From NCBI RefSeq assembly GCF_000346505.1, contig NZ_ANOH01000263.1:34896-98895 (forward strand): a stretch of DNA of 64,000 nucleotides, written 5' to 3'. The DNA is from Aporhodopirellula sallentina SM41 (lineage in GTDB: Bacteria; Planctomycetota; Planctomycetia; Pirellulales; Pirellulaceae). The notes below the pieces were generated by a model, which saw only the letters and a program-made list of their open reading frames with translations, was not told the origin of the DNA and did no database searches. Below are positions 19,059 through 61,956 of the stretch, piece after piece (position 1 is the first letter of the stretch; every line of letters begins with the position of its first letter). Both the position numbers and the translations under genes were made by a program.

Positions 19059-19505
19059 ACATCCGAACCGATTCATTTTCCCAGCCGATTAATTATTCGA
19101 ACTGACGAATGACTCAAAAGAGGCCGCCGAGCCCTTCGGGCGCCTCGCAATTCCTTTCAACCGACGAGTTTGACCGTGAGCAGCAACCGCCCGCCGAATC
19201 CGTCCCATGCCATCGTCACGCACAGCGGACGTGCCGTCGGTCCAATGATGATGCCCGAACAAAACGGGGAATCATTCGTGGAAGAATTTAACCGCACCTA
19301 CCGGTCCATCGGGCTGTCGGTGACGCTGAACGAACATGGACGCCCTTTAGTATCCCAGGTGAAAGGTTTACACTCTCCGATCGAGTGCAGCTCTCCCGGA
19401 CACGTCGATGCCGTCGCATCGGGAACCGCGTGATCATGCACCCATGCGTCGGCACCGCGCCAACGCGATTGTGACTTTGACCGGGCGATTTTGATCGAGA
19501 ATACC
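19059..19505. other. Intergenic region with a hairpin and doubtful small frames
   Basis: Between the dehydrogenase and the DUF3127 gene there is no certain gene. A GC-rich stem-loop (GAGGC at 19120-19124 with GCCTC at 19142-19146, around a CCCTTCGGG core) may end the dehydrogenase transcript, but no T run follows. A weak open frame at 19170-19433 is listed separately. Confidence 0.4.
19170..19433 (+). CDS. Possible small hypothetical protein
   Basis: This 87-codon frame starts at a TTG without a good ribosome-binding site. The translation is hydrophilic, with a segment (EEFNRTYRSIGLSVTL) that could be structured, but it matches no family I know. A second overlapping frame covers part of the same bases. 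It is on the same strand as its neighbours and could precede the DUF3127 gene in a transcript. I give it low confidence; conservation in relatives would decide. Confidence 0.2.
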   Translation: MTVSSNRPPNPSHAIVTHSGRAVGPMMMPEQNGESFVEEFNRTYRSIGLSVTLNEHGRPLVSQVKGLHSPIECSSPGHVDAVASGTA

Positions 19506-19874
19506 ATGAGTGATGCAAAAGTACGTGGCGTTGTCCACTTGATTGAGGAAACTAAAACCTACGGACAGAAAGGTTTTCGCAAACGGCTAGTCGTTTTGGA
19601 ACAGGACAAAGGCAGCTTCACGAACTACGTTCCCGTGGAATTCACTCGCGACGCATGCGACAGCGTAGACGAAATGAAAAAAGGTGACGAAGTCGAAGTG
19701 ACCTACCGCCTGAACGGCCGGCGTTGGCAAAAAGACGCCAACAGTGAGGTGAAATTCTTCGTCAACGTGGAGGCGATGTCATTCCAGGTGGTTGGCGGTG
19801 GCGGAGCATCCGCCGGATCGGCCAACGACGCCTTCGCCGAAGCAGGTGGGGAAGAAGACGACGCACCGTTCTAA
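19506..19874 (+). CDS. DUF3127 OB-fold-like protein
   Basis: This 122-aa protein starts at the ATG at 19506 with GAGA six bases upstream; an in-frame TTG 15 bases earlier is less likely. Residues 1-95 follow the DUF3127 pattern: a VRGVVHLI strand, a KRLVVLEQ strand, the central NYVPVEF, the turn MKKGDEVEVTYRLNGR and a final FFVNVEAMSF strand. DUF3127 resembles an OB-fold, and its members are sometimes found in phage and DNA-binding contexts. The tail is Gly/Ala-rich and ends acidic (EEDDAPF). That is reminiscent of the acidic tip of single-strand-binding proteins, but this is only a resemblance. Function is unknown. A structured region and the sigma-factor operon follow. Confidence 0.75.
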   Translation: MSDAKVRGVVHLIEETKTYGQKGFRKRLVVLEQDKGSFTNYVPVEFTRDACDSVDEMKKGDEVEVTYRLNGRRWQKDANSEVKFFVNVEAMSFQVVGGGGASAGSANDAFAEAGGEEDDAPF

Positions 19875-19919: not shown

Positions 19920-20052
19920 GCCAGCAAACTGTGCTGGCACAGGGGTTGGCAAACCCAGCCGGCGAAAGCGGGCTGAGCCCCCGCCGCGAAGTTTTCTCGA
20001 AATAACTTCGTAATAATTAGACAAACCTCGCCCCAACGCGCATCTTGTGGGG
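19920..20052 (+). promoter_or_regulatory. Array of stem-loops in the leader of the sigma-factor operon
   Basis: Four consecutive perfect or near-perfect hairpins can be drawn. GCCAGC/GCTGGC is at 19920-19938. GGGTT/AACCC with a GGCA loop is at 19943-19956. AGCCGGC/GCGGGCT with a GAAA loop and one G-G mismatch is at 19957-19974. CGAAGTT/AACTTCG is at 19987-20010. A fifth pairing, CCCCA (20031-20035) with TGGGG (20048-20052), would cover the only ribosome-binding-like G run before the ATG at 20055. This could be a regulatory leader, a terminator zone for the DUF3127 gene, or partly chance, since the stems are only 5-7 pairs. No known riboswitch was recognised. Confidence 0.35.
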
Positions 20053-20054
20053 TG

Positions 20055-20654
20055 ATGAACCAATTTACCCCACCGCCGTCCGGCGCCACCTTCTCCCAGC
20101 GGGTGCGCACGTCCGCTCGCCAGCTCGCTGAGCTCGGCGAGGATTCCATCAGCGGATTGATCGACCTGACCTCGTTGCGGTTGGTGCGTTTCGCAACCAC
20201 CCTAACGCGGAACCAACACGACGCCGAGGATGCGGTTCAGGCAACGTTGGTCAAGATTGCGGCTCAACCCAAACGCCTGCATCAATGCACGGATCCGTGG
20301 GCCTATCTGCTCCGCATGGTTCGCAACGAATCAATGCTGATCATGAGGCGACGTCCCCGCTGGAACCTGATCGGTGATGTATGTGACCTGCTAACACGCT
20401 GCCGCGTCGATGAACTCGAACGCGAGGAAAGCTACCGCGAAATTTGGCGGGCGATGCGGAAATTGCCGACGCAGCAAAGCGAAGTCGTTGTGCTGAAGAT
20501 CTGGGAGGAGATGACGTTCGCTGAAATCGCCGGCGTCCTGGACATCTCCCCTTCGACCGCAGCGAGCCGGTATCGATACGCGATCGCGAAACTCAACTGC
20601 CAACTTCGCGAAAATCTTTCCCAACCGCACGAGGATCTGCAACAGCATGTTTGA
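20055..20654 (+). CDS. ECF-type RNA polymerase sigma factor
   Basis: This 199-aa protein has the two domains of extracytoplasmic-function sigma factors. Region 2 has the segment RLVRFATTLTRNQHDAEDAVQ with DPWAYLLRMVRNE after it. Region 4 holds the helix-turn-helix EEMTFAEIAGVLDISPSTAASRY split across its helices. I choose the ATG at 20055; a GTG directly before it is the alternative. Its end overlaps the next gene by 8 bases, and a run of overlapping pseudopilin-type genes follows. It therefore probably controls this operon, possibly its own promoter. It is of the short planctomycete type without extra C-terminal domains. Confidence 0.9.
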   Translation: MNQFTPPPSGATFSQRVRTSARQLAELGEDSISGLIDLTSLRLVRFATTLTRNQHDAEDAVQATLVKIAAQPKRLHQCTDPWAYLLRMVRNESMLIMRRRPRWNLIGDVCDLLTRCRVDELEREESYREIWRAMRKLPTQQSEVVVLKIWEEMTFAEIAGVLDISPSTAASRYRYAIAKLNCQLRENLSQPHEDLQQHV

Positions 20655-21219
20655 TCCTTCGCAATGGCCCGACAAATCCGAATCTCACGAATCATCCCAG
20701 GGCGATGCATTCTTCGACGAGATGAAGGAACTGTATGGAGATGATTCGCATGGGCCGCACTTCGCCGATGAAACCATCCACAACGGCGTCGAACTCGAAG
20801 AGTTAATTCGTGGCGCGGGGCGCTACGTACGCCCCGGTGACCAACTCCGCGCCCGCATTCTCGAGCGTGTTTCGCATCGACGAGAACGACGACGGATTTG
20901 GCAACGCGTCTTGGGTGGTTTCACCCTGTCATGCACCATCGCTCTGGCGTTGATCATCATCGGCCGGTCTGCAATGACCTTCATGCCGCGTGGGCCTTCG
21001 TCGAGCGACCTGCATTCCCAAGCCACGCGTCGAGCCAACGCCGACGGAGTCGCTTGGGAATGGGCGTTGACCGAAGTCGTCTACGATTGGCGACGCTCCG
21101 CCGCAACCAACCTTTCGCGAGCAACACCCGCGCCGCAAACGTCAGCCACGAACCAACCGGAAAGCGATCGCCCAAGCGTTCCAACATCACGTACACATCG
21201 TGACGGGTCGTTACGATGA
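20647..21219 (+). CDS. Single-pass membrane protein, candidate anti-sigma factor
   Basis: This 190-aa protein has a cytoplasmic N-terminal part of about 85 residues, one membrane helix at about 88-107 (FTLSCTIALALIIIG) and a periplasmic-side C-terminus rich in Ser, Thr, Arg and Pro. This topology and the 8-base overlap with the sigma-factor gene fit an anti-sigma factor. I do not see the HxxxCxxC zinc motif of ZAS anti-sigma factors, so the assignment rests on context. The basic stretch before the helix (HRRERRRIWQR) would act as the membrane stop. It could instead be a component of the pseudopilin machinery. Its last bases (ATGA) are shared with the next start. Confidence 0.6.
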   Translation: MFDPSQWPDKSESHESSQGDAFFDEMKELYGDDSHGPHFADETIHNGVELEELIRGAGRYVRPGDQLRARILERVSHRRERRRIWQRVLGGFTLSCTIALALIIIGRSAMTFMPRGPSSSDLHSQATRRANADGVAWEWALTEVVYDWRRSAATNLSRATPAPQTSATNQPESDRPSVPTSRTHRDGSLR

Positions 21220-22196
21220 ACGATCCCAACTCGGCGAAGCGCGAAACACAGCCGGACAAAAGAGCGGAACGTTTGCGATCGTATCACCAGTCCCTGCGAG
21301 CCGCTGTGATTGCCGGCGTTAAACTCGACCTCGGCACGCTCCGTCATCCCGGCACACCATCGCCGCAGCGAAACGACGCTGTGCCAAATTCAGCACACCT
21401 CGGCGGGATCGCGAACCTTGCCAAACTCTCTCGTCTCGAACCGATGCTCGCCGAGGCGATTCGGAAGAGCGATGACACCCAACAGGCCGCGAATTCGCAG
21501 AGCGACGATCCGGCGAACGGGTTACCCACCGCCTATGTCTCAGCGTTTCACTTTTTCGAACAAACCGGCCGGATCGATTTGGTTTTGGATTCGCTGTCGT
21601 TGCCCTCCGCGGTCAATCGAGACCTCGCCAGCGCAATTCGCCCGGTCTGTTTTTACATGGCGTTGCTACTGTTGGCAGGGACGGGTGGCCTGACGGTCTT
21701 TGCCACGATTTCAGGCCCCAGGATGACCGCCATTCGCAACGACATGGCATTGCAACCCATCGCCGAAGTGAGTGAGTCTTGGTTGGCTTCCCCGGACATT
21801 AGTCCGCTTTTGATTGTCCTCCCGATCTTGACCGTGGGCATGATTTTGCTGGGAACCACCACGAAAGGTTCCGCGGCAATCGTTGGGCTTCTGGGAGGAA
21901 AACGCTATCGCATCGATCGTTCTCGATTCGTACTTGCGAACATTGAAAAGGCCCGAGGTCCGCGTTCGCAATCAGAGCCCGACGGACGCAACAGTCGCTT
22001 GTCGTTGGTGGCCGCGCACGCGTCCACGCTCGCTCAGCATCGCCTCACCCGCCTGCGCATCGGACTGCCCACAATCCTGATCGCGATACTCGGTGGTGGC
22101 GGTGTTCTTATCTACTGCCTGATCCTTTTTGGTCCACTCATCTGGCTCATCCACGACATGGCAACCATTCCAATCGAGCAAGGGATGTTACCTTGA
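21216..22196 (+). CDS. Divergent GspF/PilC-like membrane platform protein (first of three)
   Basis: This 326-aa protein has three hydrophobic regions at about 142-165, 194-215 and 280-312. The arrangement is that of one half of a type II secretion or type IV pilus platform protein. The segment after the first helix (ISGPRMTAIRNDM) stands where the neighbours have IVPTFEQMFDEF, and the C-terminal long helix matches theirs. Cytoplasmic helices before the first membrane segment contain SAFHFFEQTGRIDLVLDSL, comparable to the gain-of-extension motif region of GspF. It is much more diverged than the next two proteins and lacks obvious conserved Pro-Thr-Phe. It starts by ATGA overlap and ends by TTGA overlap. 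Confidence 0.6.
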   Translation: MNDPNSAKRETQPDKRAERLRSYHQSLRAAVIAGVKLDLGTLRHPGTPSPQRNDAVPNSAHLGGIANLAKLSRLEPMLAEAIRKSDDTQQAANSQSDDPANGLPTAYVSAFHFFEQTGRIDLVLDSLSLPSAVNRDLASAIRPVCFYMALLLLAGTGGLTVFATISGPRMTAIRNDMALQPIAEVSESWLASPDISPLLIVLPILTVGMILLGTTTKGSAAIVGLLGGKRYRIDRSRFVLANIEKARGPRSQSEPDGRNSRLSLVAAHASTLAQHRLTRLRIGLPTILIAILGGGGVLIYCLILFGPLIWLIHDMATIPIEQGMLP

Positions 22197-23404
22197 CCGA
22201 TATTGCTCGAACCGATGTGCAGCCACCTCAATGGATCCGCGCGTGGCTACCTCACCGCGACAAAATCGTTTCGGCGTTAACGCTTTCCGCCGATGCTGTT
22301 TCCGGATCATCTCAACAACAGATTCACCAACTCGCCGACGAAGTAGCCTTCCTGAACGAAGATGCCGACGTCCTTCTCAATCCGTTCGCGTTGGAAATCT
22401 TCCTCAACCTGGAAGCCGTCCCCGTCCTCGACGGGCCTTTCACACCCTCGGTGTCAAAAGAATCTTCGCCAACCCCCGCGGAGACTGACCCTGAGCAAAC
22501 TGGCACGGTCGAACCGCCGCTGGATCTCGAATCTCGGATTCAATCGGCGGTCAACTCCACACTCCTGGCTCACATTCGTATTCAATCGCGCGGCCAACGA
22601 ATCCTCACCGTGATCGCTTATCCGCTCGTCGTGATGACGGTTTGCATGGGCGTTCTGATCTTTGCGGGGCTTTTGATCGTTCCAACGTTCGAACAAATGT
22701 TTGACGAATTCGGTTTGAAACTCCCATTCTTTACACAACTGTTGTTCCGTTTCTCAAACATTGTTCAGTCGCCATTCACTTACGTTGTGCTGTTTGGGTT
22801 AACAGCGATCGTTGCATTGGCAGCCTGGCTGCGTTGGGGAACCAACTCGCCTTTGTACGCCCGGTCCCCTCGACGAGGAACCCGTGTGCAATTTCGGCCA
22901 ACCGCACCTCGCTCAACACGCGGCACGTGCGCCGATTGGGCGTGGCACCTGTCGCTGTTGATGCGAACTGGACTTTCGAAGGCGGATGCCATCGAAGTTG
23001 CCGGCGTCGCGTCCGCACAAAAGTGGTTGTGTCGAGGCAGTCAGTTTTGGGCCGATGCGATCCGCATGGGAGACGATCCTTTTCACGGTGTCACTCATTT
23101 CCGTCGGGTGCCGTGCCACATGCTCGCGGACGCTCTCTCGATCGATGTTGCCCTTGCACCGCAACGGCAACCGGACCCCAGCAAAACACCTCCAACTCCG
23201 GGTACTCAGGAGACGCTGAATCAATACCAAGCCAACATCCTTCGTGAAATCGCGGAACTGTATTGGGATCGGGACCGACATGTCACCATTTGGCGTTTAG
23301 GTTGGGTGTCGCCACTGATCGTTTTCTGTGTCGGTTTCATCATTTGGTTCGTGGTGATCGCCTTGTTCGCTCCGCTGGTGAGTCTCATTTCGGGGTTAAC
23401 ATGA
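22193..23404 (+). CDS. GspF/PilC-like type II secretion platform protein (second)
   Basis: This 403-aa protein starts at a TTG overlapping the previous stop (TTGA), with GGGA about ten bases before it; there is no early in-frame ATG. The membrane domain has the canonical signature after the first helix (IVPTFEQMFDEFGLKLP, about residues 160-176), then a second helix, a cytoplasmic helical domain and the C-terminal helix pair region. The N-terminal 130 residues replace the first F domain of normal GspF (about 400 aa with two F domains) and are not clearly homologous. In characterised systems GspF anchors the assembly ATPase and pseudopilus. No ATPase gene is nearby. Confidence 0.8.
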   Translation: MTDIARTDVQPPQWIRAWLPHRDKIVSALTLSADAVSGSSQQQIHQLADEVAFLNEDADVLLNPFALEIFLNLEAVPVLDGPFTPSVSKESSPTPAETDPEQTGTVEPPLDLESRIQSAVNSTLLAHIRIQSRGQRILTVIAYPLVVMTVCMGVLIFAGLLIVPTFEQMFDEFGLKLPFFTQLLFRFSNIVQSPFTYVVLFGLTAIVALAAWLRWGTNSPLYARSPRRGTRVQFRPTAPRSTRGTCADWAWHLSLLMRTGLSKADAIEVAGVASAQKWLCRGSQFWADAIRMGDDPFHGVTHFRRVPCHMLADALSIDVALAPQRQPDPSKTPPTPGTQETLNQYQANILREIAELYWDRDRHVTIWRLGWVSPLIVFCVGFIIWFVVIALFAPLVSLISGLT

Positions 23405-24456
23405 GCAGCAGCGAACCCTTCTTTTTCCAAGTCACTCTACCGCACGAACGTGCTCTGGTTCGTGTTCTATCCATGGCAACGCGGCGACGTCTCCATGCCG
23501 CGAGGATGGTGGAACGGTTAGCGTGCGAGTTCAAACGACGCCCCGCACGAGCCTTGAATCAAGTCGCCCGACTGTTGGCTGAAGGCACACCGATTGTTGA
23601 CGCACTCGAACAAACCCCGCGAGCGCTCGATCCGACTGCGGTGTTGCTACTGCGGCTTGCCTCCCAAACCGGGACGTTCTCCGAAACACTGGATTCATTG
23701 ATCGCGGAAGACGAACAAACCGACGCCGCCAATGAAGTTCGCACAGCCTCGATCGAGAACCAACTCTATCAAGTCGCAGTCGGGTTCTTGATGGCGTGGC
23801 TGCTCATTGCGTTTTTGCTGACGTTCATCGTCCCAACATTCCAAAAGATGTTCGAGGAATTCGGAATCGACCTACCCGGTTCGATGTTGTTGCTGATCGC
23901 AATTGGCGATTATTGGCCGGTCTTAATGTTGCTCTCCCTCGTGTTGCTATTCACCATCTTAATCTTCGGTCCGCTCGTTATCGGACGACCGCGATGGGCA
24001 ATGGAATTTGGGCGCAGACGTTTGCACGCCCGTGCCGACCTGCTATCGCTACTCGCAACAATCCTTCAGTCGGGCCGCCCGCTCGCATCCGGGATCGACA
24101 CGTTGTCTCGCATTCATCCGGTCAGTCGAATACGCACGCGTCTGGTCAAAGTATCCAAGTCGATCGATCAGGGTGAAGATACTTGGCGAGCCCTCTCGGC
24201 ACAAAAATTCATTGGCAACGCCCAGATGCACGCGTTCCAAACGACGCAGGACCAAACAGCACAGGCATGGCTGCTACGCTTTGAAGCTCGCCGAACCAAC
24301 ATCTGGATCGAACTCCGCAGCAACTTTCTTGCTCGATGCATCTCGCTTGCGACGCTCCTGTTGCTCGCCGCGGTTGTCCTACTAGCCTCCGTGGCAGTTT
24401 TCACGTCGGTATACGGTTTGGTGAGTGGACTCGCTTGTGTGGGCTTTATCGGATGA
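23401..24456 (+). CDS. GspF/PilC-like type II secretion platform protein (third)
   Basis: This 351-aa protein starts at the ATG at 23401 in an ATGA overlap. Its N-terminal cytoplasmic F domain is recognisable: LNQVARLLAEGTPIVDALEQTP, followed by LLLRLASQTGTFSETLDSL. The first helix ends in the family signature IVPTFQKMFEEFGIDLPG (about 145-162). Another helix and a short second cytoplasmic domain (LLATILQSGRPLASGIDTL) follow, with a C-terminal helix. It is the most canonical of the three F proteins. Two near-full F proteins side by side suggests a heteromeric platform. It ends in an ATGA overlap with the first pseudopilin gene. Confidence 0.85.
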   Translation: MSSSEPFFFQVTLPHERALVRVLSMATRRRLHAARMVERLACEFKRRPARALNQVARLLAEGTPIVDALEQTPRALDPTAVLLLRLASQTGTFSETLDSLIAEDEQTDAANEVRTASIENQLYQVAVGFLMAWLLIAFLLTFIVPTFQKMFEEFGIDLPGSMLLLIAIGDYWPVLMLLSLVLLFTILIFGPLVIGRPRWAMEFGRRRLHARADLLSLLATILQSGRPLASGIDTLSRIHPVSRIRTRLVKVSKSIDQGEDTWRALSAQKFIGNAQMHAFQTTQDQTAQAWLLRFEARRTNIWIELRSNFLARCISLATLLLLAAVVLLASVAVFTSVYGLVSGLACVGFIG

Positions 24457-24878
24457 AACACACCAAACCCAGAATCAATCATGATCGCTGGAACAGGCCC
24501 CGCAAGGGGTTCACGATGCTGGAATGCGTCGTTGCGGCGTCGATCCTAATGGTGGCGATGAGCACCGTCGCTACGTTCGCGTATCGCGTTCATCGCCTAT
24601 GGATGGATGTTGCCGATCAACGCATCGCGATGAACGAACTGACCAACCAAATCGAATTCATCACACAACTGCCGGTCGAAGAAATCGATGACGCGATCGC
24701 CGGCATCACACCTTCCGCGATCGCCGCAATCAGCCTGGACCATCCGGAGCTTTCCGCCACACGCACTCAAGATAAATTTGGCGACCGGATTACCGTTACG
24801 CTGCGTTGGCGATCAACCAACCCGATTCCTCCGGTTCGATTGGTAGGCTGGATCAACTCGAAGGAGTCGACACCATGA
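24453..24878 (+). CDS. Minor pseudopilin (GspI-like)
   Basis: This 141-aa protein starts at the ATG at 24453 (ATGA overlap). It has a type III (prepilin) signal: basic residues, then cleavage after Gly19 before FTMLE, with the essential Glu at +5 (Glu24) inside a hydrophobic helix (CVVAASILMVAMSTVATF). The body after the helix is short, about 90 residues, as in GspI/PilV-type minor pseudopilins. It needs a prepilin peptidase, which is not encoded in the window. It is followed by a second pseudopilin in an ATGA overlap. Confidence 0.82.
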   Translation: MKHTKPRINHDRWNRPRKGFTMLECVVAASILMVAMSTVATFAYRVHRLWMDVADQRIAMNELTNQIEFITQLPVEEIDDAIAGITPSAIAAISLDHPELSATRTQDKFGDRITVTLRWRSTNPIPPVRLVGWINSKESTP

Positions 24879-25477
24879 CATTGAGTTTAACAGCACGGCG
24901 AGGCTCTTCTCTGATCGAAATCATGGTGGTGCTGTCAGTCTCATCGACCCTTCTGGTCCTCGCGGTCGGATGGATCCATCAGTCAATCCGGCTCGCCTCA
25001 ATCCTGCGAAGCCACGAACGTCACCACCAAAGCGTGCTGCGGTTGTCGAGACAATTCCGTGACGACGCACACCTAGCCGCTCAGGTGATTCAGAATGAGA
25101 ACGAGATTCGCTTTTTGGCAGAAAACTCAGAAATCCGATATCAGATCGACGATTTGACGGTCACTCGGATTCACCAGACGCCATCCGACGATGCACCACC
25201 ACATCGTGAAAGCTATCAACTCGCTGTTCGTTCTGAAGCTTCGTTCGATTTGCTTCCTGATTCCGATTGGGTCGTTCTTACCGTACGTCGCCGCCGTCCA
25301 CCACACGCAGCAGCAGAACCACACACAAGCAACCCCGATGCGTCCGCCGATTCAACACCACGTGAATCCGAAAAGGTTAGCCTACCGACCGACCTCGTCG
25401 TTCGCGCCGCGGTTGGACGTTGGTCCGATGAGCGATCTGACAACAAAGCCCCACCGCGTGAGGATTCTCTGCCGTGA
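24875..25477 (+). CDS. Minor pseudopilin (GspJ/PilW-like)
   Basis: This 200-aa protein starts at the ATG at 24875 (ATGA overlap). The prepilin signal is RRG/SSLIEIMVVL, cleaved after Gly10 with Glu15 at +5. Serine at +1 is unusual, as most prepilins have Phe or Met. The body begins with a helix (LASILRSHERHHQSVLRLSRQF, in two parts) and a beta-rich region, with a polar C-terminus. The length fits GspJ or PilW. It ends in a GTGA overlap with the next gene. Confidence 0.75.
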   Translation: MTLSLTARRGSSLIEIMVVLSVSSTLLVLAVGWIHQSIRLASILRSHERHHQSVLRLSRQFRDDAHLAAQVIQNENEIRFLAENSEIRYQIDDLTVTRIHQTPSDDAPPHRESYQLAVRSEASFDLLPDSDWVVLTVRRRRPPHAAAEPHTSNPDASADSTPRESEKVSLPTDLVVRAAVGRWSDERSDNKAPPREDSLP

Positions 25478-25920
25478 CAAATCAACATCGCACGCATTCG
25501 CGAAGCGATCGCGGAACAGTCCTGATTGCCGTGTTGGTCTGCTTGACCGTTGCGTCAGCCATCACGGGTGTTGCGTTGCAGTCGAGCCTACGCTCGCGGC
25601 GTCACATGAACGTCCAATGGCAACTCGAGCAAACTCGTTTGCTTCTGGATGCCGGGATTCGACGTGCCATGACCCGCGGTGCAGACAACCCTGATTACGA
25701 AGGTGAATCATGGAGTGTTGATGATGCACTGGAGGCGTTTCCGGTGGCGAACGTTGAGATTCGCCCAACCCAAGACGACGCCTCCGAAAACAGCAACTTG
25801 CGACTTTATCGCGTCACGGCTTTGATCCAAAACCGCGACCGTATCCCGGTGCAAACGAAACGTTCTCAAATCATTCGAATCCACCGCAAACCAACAGCCA
25901 CCCCGCTCATCAATCCCTAG
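25474..25920 (+). CDS. PilX/GspK-like pseudopilin without the +5 glutamate
   Basis: This 148-aa protein starts at a GTG in a GTGA overlap. Its N-terminus (SDRGTVLIAVLVCLTVASAI) is of the prepilin type, with cleavage expected after Gly14. The +5 residue is Ala19 rather than Glu, as seen in GspK, the tip pseudopilin, and in some PilX proteins. The body is much shorter than GspK (about 300 aa) and lacks the large insert. With the two preceding proteins it could form the tip complex of a pseudopilus. It is followed nine bases later by the DUF1559 pseudopilin gene. Confidence 0.72.
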   Translation: MTNQHRTHSRSDRGTVLIAVLVCLTVASAITGVALQSSLRSRRHMNVQWQLEQTRLLLDAGIRRAMTRGADNPDYEGESWSVDDALEAFPVANVEIRPTQDDASENSNLRLYRVTALIQNRDRIPVQTKRSQIIRIHRKPTATPLINP

Positions 25921-25929
25921 GAGCTCATC

Positions 25930-26832
25930 ATGACACGTCCCTCTTATCGCAAACCGAACGCCTTCACCTTGGTGGAATTGCTAGTGGTGATTGCGATCAT
26001 CGGTGTTCTCGTCGGACTGTTGCTGCCGGCTGTGCAGGCCGCCCGGGAAGCGGCCCGTCGCTGTTCCTGTGCCAACAATCTCGCACAACTCGGGTTGGCA
26101 ACACACAACTACGAGTTCTCGATGGAGCACCTGCCTTCGGGCTCAATCAACCCGGACGGCCCCATCTTGAACGAACCCATCGGCCAGCACGTCGGCTATC
26201 TCGTTCAGCTATGCCCCTACATTGAACAACAGGGAATCGCTAATCAGTTTGACATGTCCCTGGGCACATACGCCCCCGAAAACGCGCCCGCACGAAAACA
26301 AACAATCTCGAGTTTCCTGTGCCCTTCGTTTCCCTACGGCGAAAATGATGATGGCTCGTCAGGACTAACCAACTACGCGGGATGCCACCACGACACTGAA
26401 GCTCCCATTGCGGAGGACAATCAAGGACTCCTGTTTCTCAACAGCAAGGTACGCTACGGCGACATCACCGACGGCAGTTCGCACACGATCCTGATCGGTG
26501 AAATGCTCCCCGAACGATCGAGCCTCGGCTGGGCATCAGGCACCCGAGCGTCGCTGCGCAATACAGGCACATTCGGTGGATCCATCATGTCAGCGGAAGG
26601 AAGGATGACAAACGGCAATGCAGCAAACATCAACAACGCCACCGAAACAAATGCGACCGACGGGGAAGACAACAAGGAATACGTCGGCGGCTTCGCGAGC
26701 AAGCACCAAGGAGGCGCGCAGTTTTGCTTTGCTGACGGATCCATCCGATTCCTGACTCACTCAATCGACCCTATTCTGTTTCACAATCTCGGCAACCGCG
26801 AAGACGGTGCGATGATGGGAACCGAATACTAA
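25930..26832 (+). CDS. DUF1559 pseudopilin (planctomycete major-pilin-like protein)
   Basis: This 300-aa protein has the prepilin N-terminus KPNA/FTLVELLVVIAIIGVL, with Glu16 at +5 and Ala instead of Gly at -1. The characteristic DUF1559 stretch GLLLPAVQAAREAARR and CANNLAQLGLATHNYE follow. The C-terminus has the family ending QFCFADGSIRFLTHSID. DUF1559 proteins occur in very many copies in planctomycetes and their job is unknown. This one is the last gene of the sigma-factor operon and the only large pseudopilin there. It may be the fibre subunit or a substrate of the F-protein platform. Confidence 0.9.
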   Translation: MTRPSYRKPNAFTLVELLVVIAIIGVLVGLLLPAVQAAREAARRCSCANNLAQLGLATHNYEFSMEHLPSGSINPDGPILNEPIGQHVGYLVQLCPYIEQQGIANQFDMSLGTYAPENAPARKQTISSFLCPSFPYGENDDGSSGLTNYAGCHHDTEAPIAEDNQGLLFLNSKVRYGDITDGSSHTILIGEMLPERSSLGWASGTRASLRNTGTFGGSIMSAEGRMTNGNAANINNATETNATDGEDNKEYVGGFASKHQGGAQFCFADGSIRFLTHSIDPILFHNLGNREDGAMMGTEY

Positions 26833-26882: not shown

Positions 26883-28184
26883 TCACCAGTACTTCGCGAC
26901 GACGTTTCGCATCGCGTCGAGCTGATTCATCCATTCTTCTTCGCGTGTCCCGTCCCAGCGATCCGAGCATGAACGCAACACACCGCGGATTTCATGGCTC
27001 CATCCCTGCTGTTCCGCGATCGCTATCGCGAGCTTCAACTGATAACGTGCCTGAGGCAGCACCGGCACACCCCGAGCCTGCAACGACAACGCACCGAGAT
27101 CGAACTCTCGCCATGCATCCTGATCGTCCCCGTCTCGGAGGGCGTCGCGTAGTCCGAGCGGCATCTCCGCGATAACTCTGCGGTGCACTTCTACCGAAAC
27201 ACGACTGTTGTGCGGCGAGTACAAAGCCCACGACAGCCAGTGATCCCAGCGCCAATTCGCTTGATCGTATCGACCACGACGCTCGGTCAGAGGCAACACA
27301 ACGGCGGCCAGCACAATCACCGAGGCCAACATGACGCGAACAGAACGACCTGCCATCGATTCGTCCCTTTGTGTCGTCCCGTGCACTTCGTCCGGTTTGG
27401 CGTGCTCTGGCATGACGAACAGCAGATACGCTTGCCCGGCGAGGACCGCGTTCCAACAAAGCACCCCGAGGCTGTGATGCATTCCCCATGGTGACAGAAT
27501 CACGATCAACCCAAAGTGCATCGTGATCGCGAGCACACCGCCTCCTCGACGCGTACGCGGGAAAACCAGCAGGATCGCAAGCAACAACTCCACCGCCGGA
27601 AAACCTCCTGCGGCAATCAAACGCGTGCGATGATCCCACTGGCTGATATCAACCGGCGTCCAACGAGTCACCGTACCGAGAAAGTCTTGCCCAACGGTGT
27701 GCAAGAACTGAAAGTCGAATTTTCCGATCGAGCTGTAAAGGTAAACACTGATCATTAACACGCGAAGCGCGGTCAGCCAAAGACTTGACGGCAACAACAC
27801 AAACAAACACGCGTAAAGGAACGACTGGTATGCCCATGGTTGCAGTCGATGCTGATCGGTAGCAAAACCGAGCAACAACATCACCGCGATTGCCAACCAT
27901 CCTGTGCGCCGGAGCATCCCATTCCGGCCGCTGAAGAAAACAACACCACAACCAACCATCAGCAACGGCATTAACGAGACCGTGACGAACGTTCCTAGCC
28001 AACTTGGAACGCCGAAGAGCGGAACGGCGGGATAGAATTCGCTCTGCGTCCAAGCCCCGGGCAGCCAAAGTCGGTACGACACGCCGAGCAGCAGTGCCAG
28101 CGCACCACTCCAATAGCGAGAAACCAATTCGGCGCGATCGGGTTGCTTATTCGTGGAATTCATCGACCAGCCATCGAGGATCAT
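26883..28184 (-). CDS. Polytopic membrane protein (HTTM/DoxX-MauE-like)
   Basis: This 433-aa protein has about eight membrane helices in its first 310 residues and a soluble C-terminal part of about 120 residues. The segment VYLYSSIGKFDFQFLHTVG and the conserved-looking ITMHFGLIVILSPWGMHH recall the HTTM and MauE/DoxX-type membrane families. The match is loose and I name no function. It starts at an ATG whose bases overlap the TGA of the DNA glycosylase gene (ATGA), so the two are co-translated. It converges with the DUF1559 gene, with 50 bases between the ends. Confidence 0.7.
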   Translation of the reverse strand: MILDGWSMNSTNKQPDRAELVSRYWSGALALLLGVSYRLWLPGAWTQSEFYPAVPLFGVPSWLGTFVTVSLMPLLMVGCGVVFFSGRNGMLRRTGWLAIAVMLLLGFATDQHRLQPWAYQSFLYACLFVLLPSSLWLTALRVLMISVYLYSSIGKFDFQFLHTVGQDFLGTVTRWTPVDISQWDHRTRLIAAGGFPAVELLLAILLVFPRTRRGGGVLAITMHFGLIVILSPWGMHHSLGVLCWNAVLAGQAYLLFVMPEHAKPDEVHGTTQRDESMAGRSVRVMLASVIVLAAVVLPLTERRGRYDQANWRWDHWLSWALYSPHNSRVSVEVHRRVIAEMPLGLRDALRDGDDQDAWREFDLGALSLQARGVPVLPQARYQLKLAIAIAEQQGWSHEIRGVLRSCSDRWDGTREEEWMNQLDAMRNVVAKYW

Positions 28185-55500: not shown

Positions 55501-58500
55501 CTAACTCTCCCACCTCGCCAACTCCGTCGCCAGTTGCTGCAACCGCTCGCGATGCCTCTCAATCCCCGCCAGGGCAGTCAACAGCAGCATTCCGGTCGTG
55601 ATACCGAAGACCCACCACGGCCACACCGCGTCGATCGACTGAGCGGCGTGCCAAACCATGCTTGTCACGCCCACGAACACAAACACCGCCCCGAGAAACA
55701 AGAACGGTTTCACCCGCAGCACAACACCGGCGAGCATTCCAAGCAGTGCCAAACAGACCAAAACAATCGGCCCCCACAATGACGTACCGATCTCACTGAG
55801 CAACATGTCGGCTGTACTACTAAGATAGATCGTCAACGTAGCACCGTATCGAATTGCCGCTCCCAAAGCCGGATCCAAACTGCCACGCTGCCAATGAGCG
55901 ACCGCGAGCACGCAAGCCGCCGGTGGAATCAGCCAGGCCTGCGGATGAGCCAGAAAATCCCAACCGGGCAGTTGAGTCAACGTCACCCACAACGCCGCGT
56001 TGGCGAGCACAACGGTCGCAACTCGCGGCAGCCCCTGCTTCCACATCACCGACATCAGACCGTAATACATCGCCCCAATCACCAGCAGCACCTCATACGG
56101 AACCGTTCCATCACCGAACGACCAGCCCCCAACACCTGACTGCCACTTCGTAGCGAACGAACCGCTCAACCAGAACCCGACGATCGGAATCATCGGCAGA
56201 AACATTGCCGTCTTACGCATCGTGCCTGCCACCACATTGTCGCCACGGCGAATCGCCCACTGTGTCACTCCAACACTGACGAACGCGATCCCCATCACGA
56301 TGTATGGCCAAACCTCCCGAAGCCCCATAAAGGCGATCTCGTTGCGACACAGATACAAGTGCAACCACGCGACGGCGGCGATCACCTGGGCGGCATAGAG
56401 CAAACTCCTCCGCATCGCATCATCCAACCCTAACCAGTGCGATCGCGTCCCAGGCCCCTCACCCGAACCGAGATCATCCGTCGCTGCTAGCGTCAGCATC
56501 CCCGGCTGCGCCGAAGCGCGACCGCTGACGACAACCACCACCGCGAACATCACTGCGAGGCCACCCAAAGTGATCGCCACGACCACGACCAACGACGTCG
56601 CGACATCTGGAATTCCCACGCCCGTCTGACGAACAGCCATTTCGGTGATCAGCATCGCGGCCAGAGAACCAACCGAGGCACACGCCGAGACGAGACTCCC
56701 GATTCTCATTGCCCCTTTCCAACGATCAAAGAAAGGGCCAGCCAACAATCGTGGCAAGGCGAGAGCAATCACCCCCGTCGTAAGAACAAACGCGATCAAC
56801 AATCGCATCGTCGCAGTCAGCAGCCAGCAGTCGCCTCCCGGTTGCCCCAGCACCGCCATCAAAGCCAGCGTCCACAATCCGCCGAGGACACTCAGTTTCC
56901 GTCGACGATTTGCAGACTCCGAATCACTCGGGCGAGTCTGCTCGGCGAGCATGAACAACGCCCAGACCAACATGGCGAGTGAGAATAGACAGACAATGCC
57001 CCAGTTCGTTCCCTCTCGCGACTGAACCGCTAACGCCAAACCAGCCGAGACGAAACTCCCCACCCCAAACAATCCAACGATCACCTGAACCGCCGCGGTC
57101 CCGAAACGATCTGCCCTAACGAGGCCATTGACCTGATCCGGCGCAACGACTCCCTCCAATTTCGTCCTCCAACGCTCGATTGACGGCAGCCCCCACACGA
57201 GAACGGTCGTCGCGAACGTCGGTGCGAAAACAAGCAACACCCAGTGCGGCCCGCTCTCCAACTCGCAGATGCGAGATAGACTCGCGGCACCAACGGCAGC
57301 CCCCAAGGCAAACAAGCCAACCGAGACGTTCCAAATGGACGCGCCCCGAGAATACCGCACCGATGGGCGCAACAAACAGGAACACGCAACAACCCATGCC
57401 ACCACCAACTGCAACGCTCCCATCGACGCAGCCAGCGGAACTCCGGTTACTGCCCCCCTCCCCACGTCGGCATCCAACAGAATGATGCTGTACACCAAGA
57501 GAGGCATTAGAAAAACGGACACGCCAACATCCGCTCGGAACGCTTGCTGGAATCCTTCTGTCGCCAGCCGATCACTTCTCCATAACACCACACAAGCCCC
57601 TATCCAAACGACGGTAGTGGTGACGCGAACGAGATCTCGCTCCCAAATCTGCGGATGAACAAGAAGCACGAACGCTCCTCCCAAGGCGACAAACCAACCG
57701 AGCAGATACGGCAACACAGTGACCGGATGCATCGGCTGAACCGAATCGGACTTCACAAAACGCATCAGTCCCACCGCGGAAATCGCAAGTGCAATCAGCA
57801 TCAACCACAGCACCCCGTATTCCTCACTCGTCGACAATGACAGATCTCCCTCGAGGCCCATCAACCCGAGCACGAAGATCGCTACCGCCTGCACCGCCAC
57901 ATGCCAAGCCTGCAACGGACTGGTCTGCAACGGACTGGTCTGCAACGAACTGGTCTGCAACGAACTGGTCTGGCGCCAAACCAGGATCGCAGACGCGAGG
58001 CAACCGACGACGCCACAAAGCATGACGACCAACAACGCGCTGCTCGCATCAATCCAGCCCATGAAGATTGCCACCACAGCGACATGGCCGCTCATCATCG
58101 GCAAGACAAACGGCCCGAACCGCGATGCGAACGTTCCCTCACCCCGCCAACGTGGCGACAGGAATGAGTCCTTCCGCGATCCAACCCAAACCGCGAGCAT
58201 CGAGGTTGCCGCGCCGATCGGCAAACTCCACTCCGCCACCCAGCCCGAACGGTTCAACACGCCCACGAAAACCGCCCCGGCCGAAACGAGCCCAACGAGC
58301 GTCACCCAGCCCCACGAAAACAAGGCACCCCGGTCCATATCGTTGGTTCGGATCGTTTGCTCGCGCCTCGCCTGCGAGTCCCCCTTCCGCGAAAACACAA
58401 CGATACCCAACCACGCCAACGACCCTAAAACAGATGCCTGCCACCAAACCACAACCGGCGTCTCAAACAGCACCGACACGCACAGTCCCACCGCTGCAGG

Positions 58501-61500
58501 AAGCAACATCGCCGACAGAATCCGGCGTGGATCAGCCCAACCGACTCCATCATCAGACCGCCTAGATGAGCCAGACCTGTAACAGGAGTCTGCCCTCGAT
58601 TCATCGATCCGATGGACACGACTTTGTCCGCTGCGGTAAAGCAACCCCATCGACGCCAACACCCACCAAATTGCAACCGCCAGGGTGCTCAACATCACCG
58701 GTTGCGAACGATGCATTAGCGGGTACCACCAATCGGCTCGCACGAGCACAACGGAGGCGAGCAACAACAACACACCGAGCGTCAGTTCACTCCACTGATC
58801 GACATCCGCGTTCCACTGCATCGTGTCTTTGAACCGGCGCTGATAACGCGAACTCAGCAACCAAAAACCAAGAACACCGACGCTTGCCATCGAGGTCGCG
58901 CTGATTAAACGTGTCGAAGGGGACACAAACCATTCATTAGAAACGACCACTGCCAAAAAGCTCGCGATCGCCACACCGATCGCCTGGCAAGCAATCTGCC
59001 ACGTACGATTCGGCTCTCGAACGCAATTCGCACCGACCAATCCGGCTAGCCCAATGAGCAGCAAACCCCGCCGGATCCATCGCTCTGCCACCTTGGCTGT
59101 GTCTTCAGAAAAATCGACCAACGCATCAGGATGCATCAACGGAGCACGCAGCACATCGAGGTATTGCCACAGCACACCGACGAACAAAAGCACCGTTGCC
59201 AACAACACAAACCAACCATCTGGCATCGCGATACGAGACCATTCGCGATCGTCGCTGAGCAAAATGTGACGTCGCCTAGGCAGCCAACGCACTGCTTCTC
59301 GCGCAACCGACCAAACGAAAGCTGTCCCGATCAACACCATCGCCGCGTTCCACAAAAGGATGGAATTCGACGAGTCGGAACGCTGCCACAGTTCGACTCC
59401 ACCGTAGTGTGTTACCCCGCCGAGAACCGCAACGCACGACATCAACATCGCAATTTGCAGATACCACCGCCTTGGCACGACCAATACCCCGCCCGCAATC
59501 ACCCCACTTGCCACGGCCGCTTGCCAACCGGCCATCCCCCACGTCGGAAATGCAACAGCCTCATTCCAACGAGCCACCGAATACTGGACGCAGAGGAAGG
59601 CAACGATTCCGCACGCTGCTCCGGCAGAGTGATCCAGCAACAACGCGACAGTTTGCCGAGCCTCTTTCTGCCAGATCAACGCCCCCACTATCGCCAAAAC
59701 CAACAGCGATCCCGCCAAGCCGATCAACGCGAAACCACCGGACTCGTACGCGATGAAAGGCCGACCAGCCTCCCAACGCACCAGGCCAAAACACACCGTC
59801 CAGAAAAACACGCCTGCCCCCGCCACACTCCAACCAAACCGCGGGTACGTGATCGCGATCCGGAAGGCGACCAACATCATGCTCAGCAACACAAACGCCA
59901 ACACCCACACAGGAACCCATCCCAGCCAACTCAGCGGTGCCACGCTGAGCACGACCGATTGAACGCACACCACGGTTGCCCAAATCGCACCAACCATCAT
60001 CCAACTGACAGTGCTCGTTTGCCCACCCTCCCGCTTGCTCAACCAAAATCCATCGCCTGCCCGCCAAGACTGAACCGCCCAAACGATGCCCGAAACGACC
60101 ATCAAACCAATTGCCACAATCAACTGATCACCACCGATCAATGCGTGCCAAATTGATACACCACTCCAACTCGCACCGCTGATCCAAACCGGCGCGGTCA
60201 GCAACGCCGCGATCCCAAGAGGCACGCTCGCCTCGGCGAATCGCGAGCGTCTGTGCAAAACAAAGCCCGTGATCGAGACGGCCCCCGCGATCGCGGCTGC
60301 ATGCGCCCAAACCCAACTCACACGCTCGATCGATGCAGGCAACACCAACAAAGCGCACCCCAGAGCGATCACACCAAAGACGACGCATAGAAAGCGATTG
60401 GTCGCGTGCGTAGCCTGCCCCGAAAACGTAGTCCGCCCCGATAACAGCCCCGCGAATCCAGCGTGCAGCATCGCGATCGCAACCCAAACAGGCACGATCA
60501 CGATCGCAATTTGAATCCACGCCTCCCTTCCATCGGCTCGATACAAGAACGCGGCGTACGCGATGACACTAGCAAGAGCAGCTACCGCCACTCCCAAACG
60601 CAACCAATGGTTCTCCCCAAACCGGACGCCACCTTTCACACGCACCGGCTTTCCGATCTCCCGCGATCGAAATTGCCTCCGCGCCGGAATGAGCAGCGAC
60701 AACGCGCTGACGAGCGCCGGAACGATCAGGAAACCTCCCGCGTTTCCTTCCAACCATCTCCCCACCGCGGGCAATAGCGGCAAACAGATCGACGGCGCCA
60801 TCACACTCGCGGTCAATGCGGTCGCCCCGCTCGGTCCCACCAAGGCAATCGATGATTGCCACAACAGCCAACCAACACCGACCGATGCCAATGCAATCAC
60901 ACCGAGATTCATCGGCGAGGCGAGAGAAACCGTATCCACATTCGCTCCCGCCGCCGACATCCCCGCCAACACCGAGAGCGGTACCAACAGGGTTGCGATA
61001 ATCAAAATGGCTCGCGACGTATGCTCCAACTTCCAACGACGCATCGTGTACAAGCCCGCGGCAAAAATTGCGGCATCGGCGGACATGAAAATAATCGATG
61101 GAACCACCCGGTGCGTCGACGTGAGTGTGCTCCACAAACTGACAACCAACCCGATCGAACAAATTACGATCATTAACCCGGCCACCAATTCGCCCCACCG
61201 AATATTGTGGTCGGCCAAGAACGAGGAAATGACGTCCGACAACGCACGCTTGGGCCCTGCCGGCGGAACCGCCGCTTCGACCTTTGCGGCTAACGAAGCC
61301 TCACGCGGCGCGATCGACTCGCCATCCGTCTCCCCAAGAGTCACCCGTTGCCCCGATGCCGCCGACTCGCTCGTGGCAACGTCGCTTGCCGCCACATCCG
61401 CCGCTGCCCCCTTCCCAACCTCACTGCCGACAACCGATCCGGCCACTGCGTCTTTCTCGGCAATCACATCCTTTACCGCGAGCGGCTCCTCGTTTGCGAA

Positions 61501-61956
61501 CGGCGTAAGCTCGTCGAGCTCCGCAAACGCAGACCTATCAGCACCGCTCTCAGTCGCCGCAGCGATACCCGCAAAGTCGCGAGCCTCCACCTTCAGCGAC
61601 TTCGCAGTCTCCACCGACACCTTGTCGGTCGAGGCGAGTGCATCCATCATCCGTTCGAACGCCGCGATGTCGTCCGCAGGATCAGGGAGTCGCGTCATGC
61701 TCTCACCCGTCGGCTGCGGTTGCTGTCCCGTCGGTCGCGTTCTTTCGTCCGCTTCTCGGTGCCCCGACGTGTCCAACAGGTTCGCTACGGGGTCCGAATG
61801 CCCCGTGAGAAATCGCAAAACCGCTCGAGCAACCACCCACGAAAGGTGTCCAAACGCGGTAACGAACGCCCAAACCACTAGGATGAAAAAGAGTGCAGAC
61901 ATCTGAACCGCCTCGGTGGAGACACGCAGGTACGATTGAATCAACGTAACCTTCAT
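55501..61956 (-). CDS. Giant multi-spanning membrane protein (2151 aa)
   Basis: The start is the ATG at 61956, with GAGGGG just upstream. One membrane helix lies near residues 20-42, followed by an acidic, Ala/Glu/Asp-rich cytoplasmic linker to about residue 230. From there to the C-terminus dozens of hydrophobic helices follow one another with short loops, many in pairs, and I see no conserved catalytic motif. The last residues form a coiled-coil-like helix (GIERHRERLQQLATEL). Planctomycetes encode such giant proteins, loosely comparable to DUF2339-type proteins, but the function is unknown. A run of TSSLQ/TSPLQ repeats lies in one loop. It converges with the rpsM operon and its own terminator is not evident. 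Confidence 0.85.
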   Translation of the reverse strand: MKVTLIQSYLRVSTEAVQMSALFFILVVWAFVTAFGHLSWVVARAVLRFLTGHSDPVANLLDTSGHREADERTRPTGQQPQPTGESMTRLPDPADDIAAFERMMDALASTDKVSVETAKSLKVEARDFAGIAAATESGADRSAFAELDELTPFANEEPLAVKDVIAEKDAVAGSVVGSEVGKGAAADVAASDVATSESAASGQRVTLGETDGESIAPREASLAAKVEAAVPPAGPKRALSDVISSFLADHNIRWGELVAGLMIVICSIGLVVSLWSTLTSTHRVVPSIIFMSADAAIFAAGLYTMRRWKLEHTSRAILIIATLLVPLSVLAGMSAAGANVDTVSLASPMNLGVIALASVGVGWLLWQSSIALVGPSGATALTASVMAPSICLPLLPAVGRWLEGNAGGFLIVPALVSALSLLIPARRQFRSREIGKPVRVKGGVRFGENHWLRLGVAVAALASVIAYAAFLYRADGREAWIQIAIVIVPVWVAIAMLHAGFAGLLSGRTTFSGQATHATNRFLCVVFGVIALGCALLVLPASIERVSWVWAHAAAIAGAVSITGFVLHRRSRFAEASVPLGIAALLTAPVWISGASWSGVSIWHALIGGDQLIVAIGLMVVSGIVWAVQSWRAGDGFWLSKREGGQTSTVSWMMVGAIWATVVCVQSVVLSVAPLSWLGWVPVWVLAFVLLSMMLVAFRIAITYPRFGWSVAGAGVFFWTVCFGLVRWEAGRPFIAYESGGFALIGLAGSLLVLAIVGALIWQKEARQTVALLLDHSAGAACGIVAFLCVQYSVARWNEAVAFPTWGMAGWQAAVASGVIAGGVLVVPRRWYLQIAMLMSCVAVLGGVTHYGGVELWQRSDSSNSILLWNAAMVLIGTAFVWSVAREAVRWLPRRRHILLSDDREWSRIAMPDGWFVLLATVLLFVGVLWQYLDVLRAPLMHPDALVDFSEDTAKVAERWIRRGLLLIGLAGLVGANCVREPNRTWQIACQAIGVAIASFLAVVVSNEWFVSPSTRLISATSMASVGVLGFWLLSSRYQRRFKDTMQWNADVDQWSELTLGVLLLLASVVLVRADWWYPLMHRSQPVMLSTLAVAIWWVLASMGLLYRSGQSRVHRIDESRADSCYRSGSSRRSDDGVGWADPRRILSAMLLPAAVGLCVSVLFETPVVVWWQASVLGSLAWLGIVVFSRKGDSQARREQTIRTNDMDRGALFSWGWVTLVGLVSAGAVFVGVLNRSGWVAEWSLPIGAATSMLAVWVGSRKDSFLSPRWRGEGTFASRFGPFVLPMMSGHVAVVAIFMGWIDASSALLVVMLCGVVGCLASAILVWRQTSSLQTSSLQTSPLQTSPLQAWHVAVQAVAIFVLGLMGLEGDLSLSTSEEYGVLWLMLIALAISAVGLMRFVKSDSVQPMHPVTVLPYLLGWFVALGGAFVLLVHPQIWERDLVRVTTTVVWIGACVVLWRSDRLATEGFQQAFRADVGVSVFLMPLLVYSIILLDADVGRGAVTGVPLAASMGALQLVVAWVVACSCLLRPSVRYSRGASIWNVSVGLFALGAAVGAASLSRICELESGPHWVLLVFAPTFATTVLVWGLPSIERWRTKLEGVVAPDQVNGLVRADRFGTAAVQVIVGLFGVGSFVSAGLALAVQSREGTNWGIVCLFSLAMLVWALFMLAEQTRPSDSESANRRRKLSVLGGLWTLALMAVLGQPGGDCWLLTATMRLLIAFVLTTGVIALALPRLLAGPFFDRWKGAMRIGSLVSACASVGSLAAMLITEMAVRQTGVGIPDVATSLVVVVAITLGGLAVMFAVVVVVSGRASAQPGMLTLAATDDLGSGEGPGTRSHWLGLDDAMRRSLLYAAQVIAAVAWLHLYLCRNEIAFMGLREVWPYIVMGIAFVSVGVTQWAIRRGDNVVAGTMRKTAMFLPMIPIVGFWLSGSFATKWQSGVGGWSFGDGTVPYEVLLVIGAMYYGLMSVMWKQGLPRVATVVLANAALWVTLTQLPGWDFLAHPQAWLIPPAACVLAVAHWQRGSLDPALGAAIRYGATLTIYLSSTADMLLSEIGTSLWGPIVLVCLALLGMLAGVVLRVKPFLFLGAVFVFVGVTSMVWHAAQSIDAVWPWWVFGITTGMLLLTALAGIERHRERLQQLATELARWES
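57911..57970 (-). repeat. Four-copy 15-base in-frame minisatellite inside the giant membrane protein gene
   Basis: The unit TGCAACGGACTGGTC occurs twice (57911-57940), then twice more with one G-to-A change (57941-57970). In the protein it gives TSSLQ twice and TSPLQ twice, in a polar loop between membrane helices. The 15-base period keeps the frame, so copy-number change would lengthen the loop without breaking the gene. Confidence 0.95.

Follow-up and report, generated by a model that had tools for sequence, protein, structure and literature searches.

A platform and pseudopilin operon led by a sigma factor gene in Aporhodopirellula sallentina belongs to a clade that has probably lost its GspE motor gene

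Genes of the operon

The planctomycete Aporhodopirellula sallentina SM41 (Pirellulaceae) has an operon, led by a sigma factor gene, for platform proteins and pseudopilins of the type II secretion system (T2SS) and type IV pilus (T4P) kind. It lies at 20055 to 26832 in a stretch of 64,000 nucleotides that we call the window (contig NZ_ANOH01000263.1, positions 34,896 to 98,895 of the forward strand; coordinates are those of the window). The operon had been described from the DNA letters, and this original prediction spoke of eight genes, which is a miscount because its own list of a sigma factor, an anti-sigma factor, three F proteins, three pseudopilins and a DUF1559 protein adds up to nine. 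Its coordinates and junctions, checked base by base, are correct. All nine genes are on the plus strand. The open reading frame of sig (20055..20654) opens with GTG at 20052 and has an in-frame ATG at 20055, and the gene overlaps anti (20647..21219) by eight bases (20647-20654). ATGA overlaps join anti to F1 (21216..22196), F2 to F3 (23401..24456), F3 to P1 (24453..24878) and P1 to P2 (24875..25477), while F1 and F2 (22193..23404; TTG start) share TTGA, and P2 and P3 (25474..25920) share GTGA. The DUF1559 gene D (25930..26832) follows P3 after a gap of nine bases (25921-25929).

Sig has the Pfam domains Sigma70_r4_2 (E 7e-13) and Sigma70_r2 (E 3e-8), is above the cut-off of TIGR02937 as well, and is 86% identical to its counterpart in Rhodopirellula rubra (locus L035); it is thus the extracytoplasmic function (ECF) sigma factor that a pair of ECF sigma factor and membrane anti-sigma factor calls for. 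No Pfam or NCBIfam family matched anti above cut-off, and it is its position and its single hydrophobic segment that make this single-pass membrane protein a candidate anti-sigma factor. Single-pass proteins are placed alike in the ATPase-containing operons L161-L163, L266 and L273, the anti-sigma-like proteins having been matched across loci by position and by eye.

F1 is a divergent platform protein of the GspF/PilC family with three hydrophobic segments. Its sequence alone had no Pfam match, but a profile made from 41 F1 sequences, 17 of which match T2SSF, found PilC (3jc8, E 3.7e-30) and the cytoplasmic domain of GspF (5nbg, E 7.8e-10), and its AlphaFold model has a pLDDT of 85.1 and a pTM of 0.76. 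The other two platform proteins of this family match T2SSF above the Pfam cut-off, F2 with E 9e-7 and F3 with E 6e-15 over two stretches, and F3 also matches PilC 3jc8 (E 2e-10). Thus the GspF platform protein of type II secretion is present in three copies. Among the minor pseudopilins, P1 has the prepilin motif GFTMLE and an N_methyl match above the Pfam cut-off (E 3e-5), P2 has a prepilin-like GSSLIE and is just above the NCBIfam cut-off for TIGR02532 but below that of Pfam for N_methyl, and P3, which is without Glu5 (GTVLIA), has a GspK-like match far below cut-off and a predicted model that resembles minor pseudopilins. D is a DUF1559 pseudopilin of the H-X9-DG type. It matches PF07596 (E 2e-59) and N_methyl (E 3e-7) above the Pfam cut-offs and TIGR04294 above cut-off, the GspG N-terminus (TIGR01710) below cut-off, and TIGR02596 with 30 bits against a cut-off of 70 bits. 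It is likely that D is the major subunit of a pseudopilus.

As had been predicted, none of the nine genes codes for an ATPase, a secretin or a prepilin peptidase. The genome search for GspE/PilB, GspD and GspO that had been proposed together with the prediction found all three outside the operon, with two genes for A24 peptidases. Around the related cassettes 105 stretches were mapped, most of about 20 kb. A secretin profile matched in one of them, on the opposite strand and nearly 4 kb off, and in none was a secretin linked to the cassette, and a one-sequence search of the 105 stretches for a prepilin peptidase gave no match.

Spread and gene order of the cassette

All nine genes are found in the same order in Rhodopirellula rubra, with identities of 48-86% by gene (F3 73%), and the genes that flank its operon resemble those of the window by eye. 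The metagenome-assembled genome (MAG) Ww147 and a Pirellulaceae MAG have F1-F2-F3-P1-P2-P3-D with no sigma match. A P1 profile built from four rows found 72 relatives in the protein database and was positive in 59 of 119 genomes of the window's family, in 36 of 61 genomes of a second family of the same class (f3) and in 45 of 294 genomes phylum-wide, where the weakest matches are doubtful. Misses of this profile are not firm because only part of the first-look candidates was scored in the genome searches (e.g. 13 or 33 of 104 in the window's genome). F3 as query matched 118 of the 119 family genomes because it finds other GspF proteins too.

Of the 97 loci that were anchored on a P1-like match, 91 have five or six of the genes F2, F3, P1, P2, P3 and D, and the gene order of the cassette is more than chance. 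In the window's own clade, A2 (see below), each of the 37 rows has F-F-F-P1-P2-P3-D complete (loci with fewer than five of these six genes had been excluded before this count), and a sigma factor lies upstream of 21 of the 37. These counts support conservation of the gene order and a conserved ATPase-less cassette of platform proteins and pseudopilins with its own sigma factor. They also support the idea that the operon gives DUF1559 a fixed context, and this is so for one lineage of DUF1559 proteins. Some genomes have two or more such cassettes (L144 and L147 in G087; L157, L251 and L252 in G053), and at the end of the cassettes L160, L179, L235 and L272 there are several DUF1559 genes in a row, which suggests local amplification of the major subunit.

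Position of the GspE gene in related cassettes

A tree of 91 of the 97 P1-like loci was rooted on paralogous cassettes that contain E (type B); support for the root branch is low (54). The window falls in clade A2, which has 37 rows and a support of 100 in the Shimodaira-Hasegawa-like approximate likelihood ratio test (SH-aLRT). None of the 37 A2 cassettes has a GspE, with no match above 50 bits in stretches of 7.3-22 kb. In the sister clade of A2, which belongs to family f3 (25 rows, SH-aLRT 99), 15 rows carry a cognate GspE within the operon. This GspE is a short form and takes the slot between the anti-sigma-like gene and F1, so that the order in L161-L163, L266 and L273 is sigma, anti-sigma-like, GspE, F1, F2, F3, P1, P2, P3, D; L262 has one additional small frame before GspE and is otherwise the same, and further loci of the family read E-F1-F2-F3-P1-P2-P3-D. 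Near L164 and L165 there is a different, distant GspE.

In the next clade, A1 (18 rows), GspE is in the operon in three rows, and for the other 15 an A-type GspE, the cognate type, is found elsewhere in the genome in every case. At least one of these 15 cases, G084, is a contig break at the cassette, and the A-type GspE of this genome adjoins an F gene on another contig. Of the rows outside these clades, type B, G066 and G021 have GspE in the operon and G284 has it only elsewhere, as an A-type gene. In G084 and in G433, G434 and G453 of f3 the contig ends at or near the F genes, so that a GspE scored as not adjacent may reflect only the contig break.

Since the sister clade has the cognate GspE inside its operon, the cassette is not primordially motor-free, and in this respect the original suggestion of a new envelope-spanning pseudopilus with its own sigma factor is not supported as put. 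On the simplest reading of the tree, the ancestor had a GspE in the operon and a single loss at the base of A2 removed it. The original prediction had itself named, as a finding that would speak against it, a GspE gene that is consistently adjacent in close relatives and lost only in this genome; part of this holds, as an adjacent gene is found in the sister clade, but its absence extends over the whole of A2.

GspE genes elsewhere in the genomes

The cognate, short A-type GspE was called at E <= 1e-60 with the fragment on contig C255 of the window's genome as query, and B-type GspE at 1e-94 with a B-type query. A tree of the ATPases separates A-type (from cassettes and orphan), B-type and long PilB/GspE proteins, with some weak inner branches. 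A-type GspE is present in 41 of the 119 family genomes. It is in 16 of 16 genomes with A1 cassettes and in five of the 33 A2 genomes searched (G000, which is the window's genome, G036, G053, G065 and G086), and hence missing from 28 of 33; G053 holds A1 and A2 cassettes and is counted in both groups. Fisher's test on this contrast gives 6e-9, which is no strict probability as the rows are related. Neither the A-type nor the B-type threshold is reached in 20 of the 33 A2 genomes, six of which are single-contig assemblies (G006, G011, G028, G072, G103 and G105). In the sister family nine of the ten genomes without an adjacent cognate GspE carry one elsewhere, with 49-62% identity. In G419 it is only about 2 kb away, and in G433 and G434 the separation is possibly due to a contig break. 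The tenth genome, G453, in which no cognate GspE was found, is an assembly that is 80% complete. Since the cognate GspE is found elsewhere in A1 and in the sister family but is missing in 28 of 33 A2 genomes, it is likely that true loss, and not only relocation, marks A2.

In G036 and G086 the A-type GspE sits in a two-gene F-E unit, and in the window's genome such a unit is apparently split over contigs C347 and C255. No pilin match was found near the F-E units L325, L326 and C347/C255 (L052, L055). At L281-L284, L287, L288 and L294 a short GspE has no same-strand F, pilin or DUF1559 match within 9.5 kb. Those GspE genes are orphan motors, partly in genomes with motorless cassettes. The window's genome also has a type-B cassette on contig C305 (L053:2-6085) with a short GspE, three F-like proteins, pilin-like proteins and a DUF1559 protein, and relatives of it are in G045, G091, G115, G086, G111, G116 and G055.

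Conservation of the platform proteins and the pseudopilins

The cassette proteins were compared within A2, the sister-clade group with E in the operon (f3E) and A1, with D as the yardstick and with fewer rows where F1 or F3 is missing, cut off or too short (14 of 18 for F1 in A1; 12 of 15 for F3 in f3E). D, which in each of the three groups is better conserved than the other six cassette genes, has a mean identity of 53.0% in A2, 53.0% in f3E and 50.1% in A1, and the mean identities of P1, P2 and P3 are nearly alike across the groups. Those of the platform proteins are 20.7% in A2 versus 36.6 and 35.5% in f3E and A1 for F1, 23.5% versus 31.2 and 31.0% for F2, and 26.2% versus 34.3 and 33.9% for F3. 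Within bins of D identity, A2 has the lower values for F1 and F3 in four of four bins, of which the top one is small, and the lower value for F2 in all but one comparison. In a taxon bootstrap the intervals of F1 and F2 are separate, and that of F3 overlaps between A2 and A1; the A2 identities hardly change when near-copies and E-bearing rows are removed. Relative to D, the distance ratio of F1 is 3.92 in A2 versus 1.76 in f3E, and that of F2 is 3.21 versus 2.17.

With a topology that we assigned from hydrophobicity, the loss of conservation in F1 is 0.223 in cytoplasmic versus 0.068 in membrane and periplasmic columns, and in F2 it is 0.139 versus -0.002. The F1 motif AG...G.L..A.E is in 12 of 15 f3E and 12 of 14 A1 sequences (24 of 29 in total) and in none of the 37 A2 sequences; a looser form is in 29 of 29 and in two of 37, respectively. 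According to the PulE:PulF model given in PMC10790770, both cytoplasmic domains of PulF contact the ATPase, and transmembrane segments (TMS) 1 and 3 line a channel at Tyr-168 and Glu-370 with adjacent Pro. In A2 the Tyr-Pro pair of TMS1 is eroded in F1 and kept in F2, the prolines of TMS3 are partly kept and F2 retains its periplasmic loop, while conserved platform motifs are weakened in F1, F2 and F3. For F1-F3, five A2 pairs have ratios of nonsynonymous to synonymous substitution (dN/dS) of 0.08-0.28, the one exception being an F2 value of 0.53 at a dS of 0.01. An A1 pair has 0.17-0.37, which is not lower than in A2; dS is above 1 in some pairs. On these ratios F1-F3 are judged to remain under purifying selection in close A2 pairs.

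Proposed function and alternatives

We favor the reading that this is a platform operon of the T2SS/T4P type whose clade likely lost its GspE motor and likely works without a dedicated one, and we give it a probability of about one half. What argues for this is that F1 and F2 have decayed in A2 in the domains that face the ATPase. Several observations weigh against it. GspE adjacency is not judgeable in one A2 genome, G113, where the contig stops 382 bases before F1. GspE-family genes of some kind are in 119 of 119 family genomes, and the window's genome has two further candidates, the E of the type-B cassette on C305 and the F-E pair on C347/C255. The distance ratio of F3 is 2.81 in A2 versus 2.84 in f3E, which is no acceleration (the interval is wide), and that of P3 is slightly higher in A2 (2.53 versus 2.10). 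The loss in F3 is not preferentially cytoplasmic (0.064 versus 0.120, p 0.98), and the first membrane segment of F1 is also less conserved (loss 0.196). Therefore the decay is not purely ATPase-facing, and F3 could dock an ATPase. The five A2 genomes that own an A-type GspE have an F1 without the strict motif all the same, and the motif is also missing in G142 and G254 of f3 although an A-type GspE exists elsewhere in them. Two E-having f3 pairs have a lower dN/dS for F1-F3 (0.05-0.07 where unsaturated). Finally, the column tests treat related sequences as independent, and they are descriptive because the distances are large and partly saturated and the groups are internally related.

The main rival holds that the pseudopilus is an ordinary ATP-driven one, served in trans by a borrowed housekeeping long GspE/PilB, which would act probably via F3 and would have replaced the cassette's own short GspE. 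We take it seriously but doubt that it holds. The universal presence of GspE-family genes speaks for it, as does F3, whose cytoplasmic domains are not preferentially relaxed; the prepilin peptidase is likewise encoded elsewhere, and A1 shows that an ATPase gene can be apart from a still conserved platform. A new partner, however, should re-conserve the docking surfaces of F1 and F2 within A2, and the cytoplasmic columns of A2 F1 have an identity of 0.19-0.20, which is near that of the least conserved membrane and periplasmic columns (0.16-0.19). A platform that borrows a shared ATPase, which had been one of the two original suggestions, fits the related A1 best, where GspE is elsewhere and the platform is conserved, whereas in A2 the decayed cytoplasmic domains of F1 and F2 speak against a dedicated motor.

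A role in this cassette for the short ATPases that the window's genome still has, the type-B E on C305 or that of the F-E pair, is improbable. C305 does encode E-F-F-F-pilins-DUF1559, and in the ATPase tree the C255 fragment groups with the A-type proteins (SH-aLRT 90-95), but its row is long-branched and cut at the contig end. Moreover, since 20 of 33 A2 genomes are below the threshold for both types, these ATPases cannot be the general solution. That the cassette is a decaying relic heading for loss, as the weakened motifs of F1, F2 and F3 might suggest, is very improbable given the complete F-F-F-P1-P2-P3-D in 37 of 37 A2 rows (after the exclusion mentioned above), the purifying selection in close pairs, and pilins and DUF1559 proteins that are about as conserved as in the E-having clades.

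A cassette without a dedicated motor can be taken further, to a proposal that we make tentatively and rate at somewhat below even odds. A whole planctomycete lineage would run a type IV filament platform without any ATPase, in which a hetero-trimer of three GspF paralogues has kept its pilin-facing side and shed its motor-facing side, and a DUF1559 pseudopilus self-assembles from an I-J-K-type tip under the switch of its own sigma factor. Beyond the gene content, we infer the following steps. Since PulF is a homotrimer (PMC10790770), F1, F2 and F3 may form one hetero-trimeric membrane platform. A prepilin peptidase acting in trans would process P1-P3 and D, which the platform would then receive; P1, P2 and P3 would self-assemble into an I-J-K-like tip complex that nucleates the pseudopilus, to which D is added. 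Held in the envelope by the platform, the pseudopilus would be short and static, with no ATP-driven extension, and the ECF sigma factor and the neighboring membrane protein may switch the operon on in response to an envelope signal.

If the cognate ATPase was lost as proposed, A2, in which three platform proteins and four pilins have stayed under selection since that loss, would be a natural experiment. It may help to tell the platform residues that serve the motor (cytoplasmic domains of F1 and F2) from residues required for the pilins (periplasmic loop and membrane parts of F2), with A1, whose genomes still have the ATPase gene, as the control. The cassette would also give a testable, concrete role to one lineage of the hugely expanded DUF1559 family. 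This family has 74 genes in R. baltica, where it is named as a solute-binding family (PMC2754498), and 68 paralogues in Planctopirus limnophila, where its role is called unknown (PMC10632474), as these two sources put it in the parts consulted.

Other features of the window

A gene for a DUF3127 protein (19500-19874, same strand) is directly upstream of the operon. On the minus strand at 26883-28184 there is a convergent gene for a membrane protein with a MauE match, and in Rhodopirellula rubra a protein that is alike by eye adjoins the operon. Farther away, at 55501-61956 on the minus strand, an open frame of 2151 residues has no Pfam match at E 0.001.

Comparison with known systems

No description of this cassette was found in the literature searched, and the portion of PMC6668835 that was searched contains no mention of 'planctomycet'. 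Verru_Chthon pilin cassettes (TIGR02596 and kin) are pilin-like cassettes without export machinery and are not known to hold GspF proteins. D matches TIGR02596 below cut-off. The same genome also has the type-B cassette on C305, which, like its relatives, has nearly the same order, E-F-F-F-pilin-pilin-pilin-DUF1559, but keeps E, is only distantly similar and shows no sigma factor in its short contig.

Type II secretion (GspE-F-G-H-I-J-K; PulE/PulF) shares with the cassette the GspF platform, pseudopilins with prepilin motifs and, less clearly, a minor set like I, J and K and a GspG-like N-terminus of D (the GspK-like match of P3 and the GspG match of D are below cut-off), and in the sister-clade operon E is directly before F. 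Unlike type II secretion, the cassette has three F genes instead of one, a DUF1559 protein as the likely major subunit and an ECF sigma factor in front, and its operon is without E, secretin and peptidase.

An ATPase that acts on a GspF/PilC platform is the defining feature of type IV filament machines. Type IV pili (PilB/PilC/PilA) and the type IV filament superfamily are like the cassette in having a platform together with pilins. Pilin, peptidase, platform and extension ATPase are given as the core of all members in the part of PMC6711533 consulted. Of this core, the pilins and the platform are encoded in the cassette, and the peptidase and other ATPases only elsewhere in the genome. The cassette differs from type IV filaments in that no operon of its clade has the ATPase in the stretches read, and in that 28 of the 33 genomes searched in this clade are without the cognate type.

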